The notes under the pieces are model-generated. The model searched no databases. It was not told the origin of the DNA and was given only the letters and a program-made list of their open reading frames with translations. DNA of 64,000 nucleotides. It comes from Vibrio sinaloensis (GTDB lineage Bacteria; Pseudomonadota; Gammaproteobacteria; Enterobacterales; Vibrionaceae). This document shows positions 29,757-62,977 of the stretch, piece by piece (position 1 is the stretch's first letter; each line of letters starts with the position of its first letter). The stretch covers positions 992,001 to 1,056,000 of the forward strand of contig NZ_CP096199.1 of NCBI RefSeq assembly GCF_023195835.1. The letters run 5' to 3'. The position numbers and the translations under genes were made by a program.

Positions 29757-29865
29757 TGGAGGCCCTGGTCCTCCCGCAACAATAGCTCGTGAACTCGGTC
29801 AGGTCCGGAAGGAAGCAGCCGCAGCGTGTGACTTGTGTGCCGGGATGTGGCTGGGGCTTCCACCC
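29757..29865 (+). ncRNA. ffs: 4.5S RNA of the signal recognition particle
   Basis: The conserved tip is present: GGTCAGGTCCGGAAGGAAGC, then a GTGTGCCGGGATGT segment as in E. coli 4.5S RNA. The ends pair (TGGAGGCCC with GGGGCTTCCA), giving the single long hairpin. It binds Ffh and directs membrane proteins to FtsY. End positions are by pairing and may be off by a few bases. Confidence 0.96.
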
Positions 29866-52492: not shown

Positions 52493-52704
52493 AGACTGGA
52501 CTTCGTCCTGTGAGAATTAAGAACGGGCTGCGCCCTCCGAGAGGTGCACACGTTATAGCTGCTGAGTAGGTATCTGATACCGAGCTCTTTGTTAGGGACT
52601 TACGTCTGAAATACAGAAAAAGGTTGACGCTGTAATGTCAATTTTCCAAGGTTTTCTCGCAACTCGCAACTCGCAACTCGCAACTCGCAACTCGCAACTC
52701 GCAT
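52493..52704 (+). repeat. Dispersed intergenic element, copy A, with 7-unit CTCGCAA array
   Basis: Copy A lies between convergent yfbV and ald. It has two mini-hairpins (GGACTTCGTCC near 52498-52508; GGGCTGCGCCC near 52525-52535). A conserved body follows from CGTTATAGCT (52551) through TTTGTTAGGGA and ACAGAAAAAGGTTGACGC to TTTTCTCGC. It ends in a tandem heptamer, six CTCGCAA plus one CTCGCAT (52656-52704). The body matches copy B at 57.6 kb closely. Not a known IS; no ORF. Confidence 0.85.
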
Positions 52705-52713
52705 CTCATACAC

Positions 52714-57596: not shown

Positions 57597-57924
57597 ACGG
57601 GCTTCGCCGTTTGAGAGCGGACTTCGTCCTGCGAGGGGCTAGAGTGCTTCGCTCCGAGATCGGGCTTCGCCCTTCGAGAGGGCGCGTTATAGCTAATGAG
57701 TAAGTCTCTGGCACTGAATTTTTTGTTAGGGAGTTATGTCTAAAAGACAGAAAAAAAGGTTGACGCCTTCACGTCAACCTTCCAAGATTTTCTCGCTTCT
57801 CGCTTCTCGCTTCTCGCTTCTCGCTTCTCGCTTCTCGCTTCTCGCTTCTCGCTTCTCGCTTCTCGCTTCTCGCTTCTCGCTTCTCGCTTCTCGCTTCTCG
57901 CTTCTCGCTTCTCGCTTCTCGCTT
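57597..57924 (+). repeat. Dispersed intergenic element, copy B, with 19-unit CTCGCTT array
   Basis: Between convergent ftsK and dsbB. Four short hairpins share the CTTCG loop (loop starts 57602, 57622, 57647, 57665), most followed by GAG. The conserved body starts at CGTTATAGCT (about 57684) and contains TTTGTTAGGGAGTTA and ACAGAAAAAAAGGTTGACGC with a TTGACG/CGTCAA hairpin. It ends in exactly 19 perfect CTCGCTT heptamers (57792-57924), which touch the dsbB stop codon at 57925. Apparent ORFs in the array (EKREARS or RFSLLAS repeats) are artefacts of the 7-bp period. Confidence 0.9.
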
Positions 57925-58446
57925 CTATTTTCTACCTTTGACAAATTGCGCGACAACAATCACCGCCAGTGCCGCTAGGTTACCGGCAAAAATGACGACC
58001 AGCCACTGTGGCATCGACAGAGTCAAGAACTGCCAAACGATCTTGCTACAGTCACCGTAGGCTTCGAACATCCAAGGCGCCCATTGGTTCAAAGGGGCCC
58101 AATCAGGGAAGGTGACAAATAGGTCGCACGTGGCAAAGGGGGATGGATTAAATTGATAGTCGACGTGCTGCATCGATAGCGCAAGCCCTTTATAGGCACT
58201 GGCACCCCAGAGCCCCAAACCTAACCAGCGAATGATTGGGTTGTGTGGCGCAATAAGGCCGACAATTGCTGCGCCGCCGATTCCCAGCATCGCTACGCGC
58301 TCATAAATACACATCACACAAGGTGATAGCATCATCACGTGTTGAAAGAAGAGCGCACACGCTTCAAAGAAGACCACGAATAAAAGCAGCAACGCCCAGG
58401 ATAGACGCCCCTTGGAAAAAGTATTGAGAGTGGCAAGAATGTTCAC
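57925..58446 (-). CDS. dsbB: Disulfide bond oxidoreductase DsbB
   Basis: 173 residues, four membrane segments. Both redox pairs are present: Cys 43/46 in SPCVMCIYERVAM and Cys 107/133 in ATCDLF and GDCSKIVW. Re-oxidises DsbA and passes electrons to quinones. The start is GTG 58446 with AGGA 8 nt before it. Its stop codon abuts the heptamer array. Confidence 0.95.
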   Translation of the reverse strand: MNILATLNTFSKGRLSWALLLLFVVFFEACALFFQHVMMLSPCVMCIYERVAMLGIGGAAIVGLIAPHNPIIRWLGLGLWGASAYKGLALSMQHVDYQFNPSPFATCDLFVTFPDWAPLNQWAPWMFEAYGDCSKIVWQFLTLSMPQWLVVIFAGNLAALAVIVVAQFVKGRK

Positions 58447-60800: not shown

Positions 60801-61640
60801 ATGGTCATCAAGGCAAAGAGCCCTGCAGGATTCGCTGAGAAATACATTATTGAAAGTATTTGGAAAGGGCGCTTCCCTCCTGGTTCTATCTTACCAGCAG
60901 AACGTGAGCTCTCTGAATTAATTGGCGTAACTCGCACTACCTTGCGTGAAGTGTTGCAACGACTCGCTCGAGATGGTTGGTTGACGATCCAACATGGAAA
61001 ACCCACCCGAGTCAACCAGTTCATGGAGACGTCAGGTCTGCACATTCTTGATACGTTAATGACGTTAGACGCAGAAAACGCCACCTCTATCGTTGAAGAT
61101 CTACTGGCAGCACGTACCAACATCAGTCCTATCTTTATGCGCTATGCGTTCAAAGCGAATAAAGAAGCAGCGGAGAAAACCATCACTAACGTGATTTCGT
61201 CGTGTGAAGCGCTCATCAGTGCTGACTCGTGGGACCAGTTTATGGAAACCTCCCCTTACGCTGATAAGATTCGTCAGCATGTTAAGGATGATGGTGAAAA
61301 AGATGAGATCAAGCGACAAGCCGCGCTGGTGGCTAAGACGTTCAATTTCTATGATTACATGTTGTTTCAGCGCCTAGCTTTCCACTCTGGGAATCAGATT
61401 TACGGTTTGATCTTTAATGGTTTGAAAAAGCTTTACGATCGCGTCGGCAGTTACTACTTTTCTAACCCAGAAGCACGCCAGTTGGCGTTGACTTTCTATC
61501 GAGACCTATTGGAAGTGTGTCAAACGGGTAACCGAGAGCAAATTTTGGTTGTGGTACGTCACTATGGTATCGAAAGCGCGCAAATCTGGAATCAGATGAA
61601 GACGACGCTACCAACCAACTTCACCGAAGATGATAGCTAA
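60801..61640 (+). CDS. fadR: Fatty acid metabolism regulator FadR
   Basis: 279 residues. GntR-type winged helix [36 protein letters not shown] is nearly that of E. coli. The ligand domain carries about 40 extra residues (about 138-178, [20 protein letters not shown] and beyond), an insertion known from Vibrio FadR that adds a second acyl-CoA site. Represses fad genes and activates fab genes. Start ATG 60801. Confidence 0.96.
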
Positions 61641-61688: not shown

Positions 61689-62861
61689 CTAGCAATCGGC
61701 ACACTCTTCTTCACTGCCACCTGCTTCTGTAAACCACTGGCTAAGATGGCGCTTAAGGTCTTTAAGCTCGTCTGGACCAATCAAGGCTAAACCGAGGTCT
61801 TCTGCACGGGTAATGTCGTTGTGGCGCAGTGGACGGAAACTGACCAGCATCGCGCGAGCTTGCAGACCGCCCAACAGATCGCGCAGCGACTCAAGTTTAT
61901 AAAGAGTGTCGTCACCATCGTCGCGCATGCCTTTGGTTTTGCATTCGATGATGTGCAGCTTATTGTTGACCACCGACGCAACATCCAATTCATTTCGAAC
62001 TTCGCGATCACCAAGTTGACGATACACTTGAACATTGAGTGAACGATCCTGAATGGTTGGCATGTCTTGTTGTATCTGCCGGACCGTGCTGTGTACTAGC
62101 GTTTCTAGCCATTCGCCATTTGAGAAGCGACGGGCATCTTCATTGGCAAAGGTGAGCACGCCATCATGATAGGTCGCGATGTCTGTTTCGACCAAATCGT
62201 TTAATAGCATGTTCAGCTCTCGGTAACCTTGCTGCTTCTCGGATAGTGCCACATCAAGACGTTGCTCTTTACGGCAAGTGGTTGCAAGGTAGTTCAGTGT
62301 GGCCAGTCCTGGCCCGAGCTCTAATGCATTGCTCGCCCAGCGCTCACCCAGCTCGTACAGTTTTTGATCGAGTAGTGGAGGTAGTTGGTGGTCACTGAAT
62401 TCGCCGCGAGCACCAAAGATGGTGAGATATTCGTCTATGGTGATTCGGTCTTGAACCTGAGTGTCTTCATGACCATCAGGGTAGAGCCAACAAAGACGGT
62501 CGCTGCTTGGCTCTACGACAAAAATCGGCCAGTGATAACTGCGGAAAATTTCGTACACAGAGAGTAAACGATGACGCAGACCACAGCTGGCGTTGAGTTT
62601 AACTTCTTGACCACGGGTTTTAAGATCTTCCGCTAGCCGATAAATTGCCTGCTTAATCTTGGATGTAGTGGCAACGTTTGGAATTTCGAAAAATTCGGAG
62701 GTGATGTTTCTTTTCGCTAATACGCTGTTAAGGCGCTGATACATATCTTGTTGAGCTTGGACGCCGACAAAAACAATGTGGTTGCTGATCGTGCGGTTAT
62801 CAAGCAGTGGCGTCACCAAGCGAATAGGATCTTGGTCGATAATGCCAACATGAACTGCCAT
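61689..62861 (-). CDS. Orphan CARF-domain PD-(D/E)XK nuclease (DUF1887, VC1899 family)
   Basis: 390 residues. N-terminal Rossmann CARF-like domain (about 1-130) starts AVHVGIIDQDPIRLVTPLL. The ligand-loop position reads LNASCGLRHRLLSVYEIF (N90-S92-C93-G94), unlike the NLTGGTK-type loop of cyclic-oligoadenylate-binding relatives (Can2/Card1). A linker domain follows, then a nuclease fold: E253 (WLE), D293 in NELDV, and E306-x-K308 in IIECKTK complete a PD-(D/E)XK site. The last residues EEECADC are Cys-rich. V. cholerae VC1899, the likely orthologue, also sits by fadR and has a solved structure (PDB 1XMX, from memory). No cas gene or array is in view. Start ATG 62861 with GAGGAA. Activity and ligand are unknown. 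Confidence 0.88.
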   Translation of the reverse strand: MAVHVGIIDQDPIRLVTPLLDNRTISNHIVFVGVQAQQDMYQRLNSVLAKRNITSEFFEIPNVATTSKIKQAIYRLAEDLKTRGQEVKLNASCGLRHRLLSVYEIFRSYHWPIFVVEPSSDRLCWLYPDGHEDTQVQDRITIDEYLTIFGARGEFSDHQLPPLLDQKLYELGERWASNALELGPGLATLNYLATTCRKEQRLDVALSEKQQGYRELNMLLNDLVETDIATYHDGVLTFANEDARRFSNGEWLETLVHSTVRQIQQDMPTIQDRSLNVQVYRQLGDREVRNELDVASVVNNKLHIIECKTKGMRDDGDDTLYKLESLRDLLGGLQARAMLVSFRPLRHNDITRAEDLGLALIGPDELKDLKRHLSQWFTEAGGSEEECADC

Positions 62862-62939
62862 ATAAATTCCTCATGGTTGGCTTGCGAAAAGGTTACAGAA
62901 AAGTCGGCAAGCCTATTAACCATATAATGACACAGGGAA

Positions 62940-62977
62940 TAAAAAACAAGGGCGACTATAGAAAATAGTCGCCCTTG
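62940..62977 (-). terminator. Terminator of the chemotaxis receptor gene
   Basis: CAAGGGCGACTAT / ATAGTCGCCCTTG-type stem of 12-13 bp with an A-rich loop. On the minus strand GTTTTTTATT follows. Confidence 0.9.

Follow-up and report, generated by a model that had tools for sequence, protein, structure and literature searches.

The window analysed here, a stretch of 64,000 nucleotides from Vibrio sinaloensis, contains at 61689..62861 on the minus strand a gene for an orphan CARF nuclease of the VC1899 type. A first-pass annotation of this DNA had delimited the open reading frame, a single one of 390 amino acids; its strand has been corrected to minus, and frame 1 of the plus strand at 61689-62861 contains many stops. 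The protein consists of a CARF domain (residues ~1-146), a middle part (147-239) and a PD-(D/E)XK nuclease domain (240-379). Residues 240-379 match Card1_endonuc (Pfam PF09002) at 213.3 bits against a cut-off of 26.4, residues 1-378 match the PADLOC model CARF4--CARF_PDDEXK at 485 bits, and residues 1-383 match VC1899 (PDB 1xmx) at 723 bits (E 5.2e-217), with 81% identity over 382 columns. These matches bear out the domain architecture first proposed and identify the protein as orthologous to VC1899 over its full length; its fold is that of a Can2-like CARF nuclease. The catalytic site, codons 291-308 at 61938..61991 on the minus strand, contains the predicted D293 and E306-x-K308 and also E291. 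VC1899 itself (PF09002, DUF1887), for which a crystal structure has been available since 2004, has the same architecture, catalytic residues and pocket residues, with the exception of position 34, which is V in the window protein and D in VC1899.

Distribution and selection

Of 227 Vibrio genomes 223 had a PF09002 match, mostly as one copy per genome among the matches listed; of the four without it, two measure 1.0-1.1 Mb, another 3.1 Mb, and the last is 65% complete. In a draw across the family 319 of the 325 Vibrionaceae genomes had a match, as did 12 of the 13 genera, and of the six genomes without a match five were of 1.0-3.1 Mb and the sixth was a 4.4 Mb draft from another genus. The core role suggested for this gene is thereby supported. 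In a draw across the order PF09002 was found in 47 of 394 genomes, 34 of these Vibrionaceae, and identity in this draw was at least 69% inside the family and at most 38% outside it. The most divergent family copy seen was 40-41% identical (genome G227), and in two Vibrio genomes (G195 and G221) the gene was read in two pieces. Separately, Vibrio genome G021 carries on contig 2 a second VC1899-type copy (L161), 57% identical and with the same pocket motifs, flanked by a Na_Ca_ex gene and a DUF898 gene.

The median ratio of non-synonymous to synonymous substitution rates (dN/dS) was 0.016 over 51 non-independent pairs (nuclease part 0.006, CARF part 0.024) and 0.026 over 150 pairs with wider limits, indicating strong purifying selection. 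Few pairs were shared with the neighbouring genes, for which values of 0.026 (fadR, 7 pairs), 0.018 (nhaB, 8), 0.025 (hinT, 24), 0.067 (dsbB, 6) and 0.025 (mcp, 26) were obtained; the names fadR, nhaB, dsbB and hinT are ones we presume.

Ligand pocket and relation to type III CRISPR

Close structural relatives of the protein include Can2/Card1, ancillary proteins of type III CRISPR (clustered regularly interspaced short palindromic repeats) systems, and Cdn1. Structural alignments with these (7bdv, 6xl1, 9u49, 8q3z) gave 14-24% identity to the window protein. The catalytic E, D, E and K of Can2/Card1 are retained in it, and pocket residues of the kind that bind cyclic tetra-adenylate (cA4) are replaced. 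In Cdn1, according to PMC12825302, T9, K104 and Y124 are highly conserved residues binding the ligand backbone and Q11 is a further contact. The cyclic-oligoadenylate set scored here, taken as the Cdn1 equivalents, was S/T9, Q11, K96 and Y115 in window numbering; positions 9, 96 and 115 agree with the assignments seen in PMC7969007, where Asp9, Asp34, Arg96 and Val115 of VC1899 are set against Ser19, Thr42, Lys99 and Tyr118 of Can2, and position 11 follows from our own alignment to Cdn1 Q11. None of the four residues (0/4) is present in the window protein, which has D9, D11, R96 and V115 instead. Both pocket motifs of the VC1899 type, DxDPxR and NASCGLRH, are present. The first, D9-Q-D11-P-I-R14 (codons 9-14), is encoded at 62820..62837 on the minus strand, as computed from the ATG at 62861, and the second, NASCGLRHR (codons 90-98), at 62568..62594 on the same strand; the latter replaces the GGTK of Can2, so the altered ligand loop noted from the letters alone is real.

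The set used to assess conservation comprised 124 distinct sequences, at least 57% identical, from the fetched loci, mostly from Vibrio, including the second copy of G021 and excluding the 41% identical copy of G227. E291, D293, E306 and K308 were invariant in all 124 and in all 53 rows counted in a wider alignment. Invariant pocket residues in the 124 sequences were D9, D11, P12, R14, G94, R96, H97, V115, P118 and Q334. When the CARF residues placed around modelled cA4 in PMC7969007 were taken as the pocket, 6 of 9 were invariant against 33 of 146 for the domain (p 0.0045).

As the marker for type III systems the RAMP family PF03787 was used in place of the Cas10 palm domain PF22335. The latter was rejected for vibrios, where it matches 210 of 227 genomes in what we read as mostly GGDEF-like proteins; among the matches listed five scored 106-113 bits and the next 44 bits, and some matches of 39-44 bits lie close to RAMPs (G060, G133, G153, G185), so that a high cut would undercount. 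Whole-genome searches of the V. sinaloensis genome detected no RAMP PF03787 and no Cas1, and its three weak PF22335 matches (best E 2.4e-5) are interpreted as GGDEF cross-hits. A single repeat search of the window (direct repeats of at least 22 nt, at most 100 nt apart) returned three families, none array-like, and hence no CRISPR-like array. The lack of CRISPR context reported earlier therefore extends to these searches of the whole genome. RAMPs were found in 14 of the 227 Vibrio genomes, all 14 of which also carry PF09002; with PF09002 in 223, co-occurrence is not strict, and in most Vibrio genomes the gene is independent of type III systems. G006 (two) and G133 carry additional CARF nucleases, 26-28% identical and no more than ~7 kb away from RAMPs, and in G033 a partial match stands ~7 kb from RAMPs.

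Outside the family the order search gave 13 matches, 11 of which were checked for RAMPs (the weak G612 and G550 were left out), and a class search listed matches down to E 1e-20; RAMPs were present in 6 of the 11 order matches and 15 of 19 class matches, or 21 of 30 together. A tree of 50 rows, for which we chose a root on two distant rows, omitted three partial rows and one nearly identical to an included Vibrionaceae row. In it the 18 Vibrionaceae rows formed one clade (100/99) within a clade of 27 rows (97/96) that also held proteins of the Thalassotalea, Pseudoalteromonas and Shewanella type, G357 and G422; 21 of the other 23 rows came from RAMP genomes. None of the four cyclic-oligoadenylate residues was retained in 26 of the 27 rows inside this VC1899 clade, and all four were retained in 19 of 26 rows outside it, the remaining seven, of which two were partial and three were Vibrionaceae proteins linked to type III, keeping fewer.

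The DUF1887 proteins of Thalassotalea, Pseudoalteromonas and Shewanella (33-36% identity, within the 97/96 clade) have likewise lost the cyclic-oligoadenylate positions and keep D11-P12 and R96, but read GDDPTAN and NASNGSR where the window protein reads DQDPIRL and NASCGLRHR, and lack D9, R14 and H97. Their genes occur sporadically in the order draw, and no RAMP was found in the three genomes of this kind that were tested (G467, G633, G649). Two further forms were observed. The three type III-linked Vibrionaceae CARF nucleases (L163, L164, L165) have a third kind of loop (NLTQGN, NLSEGR and NVSEGR, respectively) and, short of most cyclic-oligoadenylate positions, may bind an unusual CRISPR messenger. 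A 38% identical relative (L167, 8269-9411) has an altered pocket (ILDNEP, NASTGSHHH) and is convergent with a type III operon, possibly representing a transitional form.

Proposed recruitment of a CRISPR-type nuclease and rival explanations

Part of this picture is established. An earlier study judged the VC1899 site compatible with cA4 (PMC6981274), and PMC7969007 (2021) presents VC1899 as an uncharacterised orphan whose pocket is unfriendly to cA4 and whose activity cA4 does not control; the suggestion made there is of a degenerate enzyme 'cast adrift' from CRISPR. Its orphan state, its changed pocket and its independence of cA4 are therefore not new; moreover, every CARF family is described in PMC4012209 as including members unlinked to CRISPR. 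What the survey shows instead is a gene that nearly all Vibrionaceae carry under strong selection, and whose conserved pocket is not of the oligoadenylate kind.

The reading preferred here, with a probability of roughly 0.6, is that a CRISPR-type (Can2-like) effector has become a core housekeeping or stress nuclease gated by a ligand other than a cyclic oligoadenylate. The gene would descend from Can2-like effectors of type III CRISPR and would since have left CRISPR, a direction that follows from the chosen rooting. A dimeric CARF pocket and domain closure are established for Can2 (PMC7969007) and Cdn1 (PMC12825302), and by analogy with Can2 the window protein most likely forms a homodimer whose two CARF domains make one pocket; binding of a ligand there would close the nuclease domains, and the metal-dependent E291/D293/E306/K308 site would cut RNA, perhaps DNA. 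The arrangement S/T-x-Q...GGTK...Y would have been rebuilt into D9-x-D11-P-x-R14...G-L-R96-H97...V115 and then conserved, so that some other molecule of the cell probably serves as ligand and the role probably lies in housekeeping or stress. An everyday job is also probable because the gene is near-universal in the Vibrionaceae sampled and the matching CRISPR genes are lacking in most of the sampled Vibrio genomes. That the protein may sense another nucleotide or metabolite, as had been suggested, fits a conserved but different pocket, and a more specific proposal, tentative and held at less than even odds, is that a type III CRISPR effector was domesticated family-wide as a core enzyme, its CARF pocket having been rebuilt to recognise a second messenger or damage signal that is new to it. 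As a guess, D9, D11, R14, R96 and H97 of each subunit could accommodate a guanine cyclic dinucleotide such as cyclic di-GMP, or alternatively an RNA terminus, for instance a 2',3'-cyclic phosphate. RtcR provides a comparison, as it too uses a CARF domain outside CRISPR and responds to a signal that is not an oligoadenylate, according to the accounts in PMC7790460 and PMC9650030, but it is a transcription activator with an AAA+ domain and the window protein is a nuclease. The vague orphan thus becomes an example, open to test, of how core physiology may have taken over a CRISPR effector, with a defined pocket in which to screen for a new CARF ligand.

Several observations weigh against this reading. 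In the assays described in PMC7969007 VC1899 gave no DNA nicking and very little RNase activity, so activity is not demonstrated. The pocket is not wholly fixed, as Q10 is kept in 89% and L95 in 99% of the 124 sequences and the named pocket residue D34 varies (D in 74 of 124), and the excess of invariant residues is weaker when Q334 and a whole-protein background are used (7/10 vs 135/390, p 0.023). These sequences are mostly from Vibrio, and the pairs behind the dN/dS values are not independent of one another. The three type III-linked Vibrionaceae proteins retain only 0 or 1 of the four scored positions, and loss of these alone is thus no proof of lost cyclic-oligoadenylate binding. Within the VC1899 clade the G422 gene converges on a type III operon containing Cas6 and RAMPs, so that a changed pocket does not always go with orphan status; the exact place of G422 in the tree is weakly supported (84/52). 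Losses in small genomes indicate that the gene is not essential.

Pocket residues of CARF domains lie near the dimer interface, and the invariant ones, again counting against a gated pocket, could serve that interface instead of a ligand. This leads to the rival view of a core nuclease whose CARF domain is a dimerisation scaffold without a ligand, controlled by expression, substrate or a protein partner, much as RtcAB act on RtcR. Weak activity of VC1899 without cA4 (PMC7969007) and the control of the RtcR CARF by protein partners (PMC9650030) favour it, but in a domain with only 33 invariant columns among 146, D9, D11, R14, R96 and H97 never change and all are charged or polar, and a mere scaffold has no obvious need for such residues; the view is considered unlikely. 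Less probable still is a stand-alone anti-phage nuclease responding to a nucleotide made during infection, for example a cyclic dinucleotide of the CBASS (cyclic oligonucleotide-based anti-phage signalling system) type. The fold is common to defence effectors and PADLOC models match the gene, yet the patchy presence expected of a defence gene was observed neither in the genus nor in the family, where the gene is mostly single-copy among the matches listed, and core status with a dN/dS of ~0.02 argues against a variable anti-phage gene, weakening the defence role first proposed. The compared loci, most of whose neighbours were not named by family search, also show no constant neighbour.

Two explanations carry very little probability. 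For the degenerate relic suggested in PMC7969007 there is the weak in vitro activity and the loss of cA4 residues described in that paper, but core presence in 319 family genomes, invariant catalytic residues, a mostly invariant pocket and a dN/dS of 0.016-0.026 contradict the term 'degenerate', and degeneration is rejected on the evidence of selection. That the protein is still a type III effector, supplied with cyclic oligoadenylate by systems elsewhere (plasmids, other loci), gains some support from G422, but is similarly remote given a genome without Cas1 or RAMP, the absence of all four scored positions, the lack of cA4 regulation of VC1899 in PMC7969007 and the separate Can2-like proteins within ~7 kb of RAMPs in the type III genomes G006 and G133; by the two features tested, cyclic-oligoadenylate residues and type III genes, the window protein is not such an effector. 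As a separate observation, this gene, part of the Vibrio core, is matched by PADLOC models PDLC01880 (485 bits) and PDLC01619 (475 bits). Annotation of defence genes in vibrios may therefore report a type III CRISPR accessory where no CRISPR exists and the gene is an ordinary core one.

Neighbouring genes, leader and other window features

The local setting is as originally described, with a gene which we take to be fadR-like at 60801..61640 on the plus strand, convergent with the nuclease gene, and a gene for a methyl-accepting chemotaxis protein (MCP; MCPsignal by Pfam) upstream on the same strand as the nuclease gene, followed by genes read as nhaB, dsbB and hinT. Pfam naming covered only some of the neighbours. 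In 79 named Vibrio loci (80, less one with under 1.5 kb downstream) the downstream neighbour was fadR in 38, a PNP_UDP_1 phosphorylase in 28 and neither in 13, so the fadR neighbourhood is not conserved in Vibrio as had been supposed, and fadR was rejected as a functional partner. Among 15 further loci (L177-L190, L196), mostly from other genera, ten also had the phosphorylase gene as convergent neighbour. Upstream, mcp was present in 73 of the 79 loci and a hinT-like gene alone, divergent, in six. An operon with mcp was rejected in view of these six loci and of a terminator-like hairpin at 62947..62977 (minus strand) between mcp and the gene, where it overlaps a promoter-like site; shuffles of this stretch yield about as many hairpins of the kind. 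Chromosomal neighbours are shared in Vibrio, as far as family searches named them, but no neighbour is constant, which favours a stand-alone unit, and no dedicated synthase partner is evident among the compared loci.

The leader contains an inverted repeat, GGCTTGC-21 nt-GCAAGCC, at 62879..62913 on the minus strand, 17 nt before the ATG, with a conserved stem and a pyrimidine-rich loop. The stem-loop recurs in the leaders of L002-L081 with a loop of 19-31 nt just before the Shine-Dalgarno sequence. In 66 leaders (reduced from 97 at 86% identity) the seven stem pairs hold in 93.4% of 455 cells, against 16-42% in slid controls, and the loop is 80% pyrimidine. Two-sided changes occur at six of the seven pairs but in nine cells only, RNAalifold gives a small energy of -2.37 kcal/mol for five pairs, with a covariation term of -0.1, and leaders taken singly often do not stand out from shuffles. 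The pattern occurs at one place in the genome, the stem gave no Rfam match at the gathering threshold, and GGCTTGC stems were not seen in the 11 leaders of other genera examined, some of which have other stems. Pairing of the loop with the Shine-Dalgarno sequence was rejected, being weaker than for shuffled loops (-5.36 vs -6.25 kcal/mol) in 60 of the 66 leaders, six with a poor stem in that register having been dropped. We read the element as a putative 5'-terminal stabilising or protein-binding stem. The promoter-like site, TTGTTT-16-TTATAT at 62922..62949 (minus strand), was recognized by eye in many Vibrio leaders as a candidate and was not called by a consensus promoter scan; in 51 of the 81 leaders searched, a TATAT box precedes the stem by 8-10 nt, and in 30 the search expression was unmatched.

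Elsewhere in the window, Rfam searches identified an ordinary purine riboswitch aptamer (602-701) and an ordinary small signal recognition particle RNA (29763-29859). Two tandem arrays of 7-nt units were also present, TTCTCGC x 19.6 with 100% matches at 57790-57926 and CTCGCAA x 7.4 at 52656-52707.
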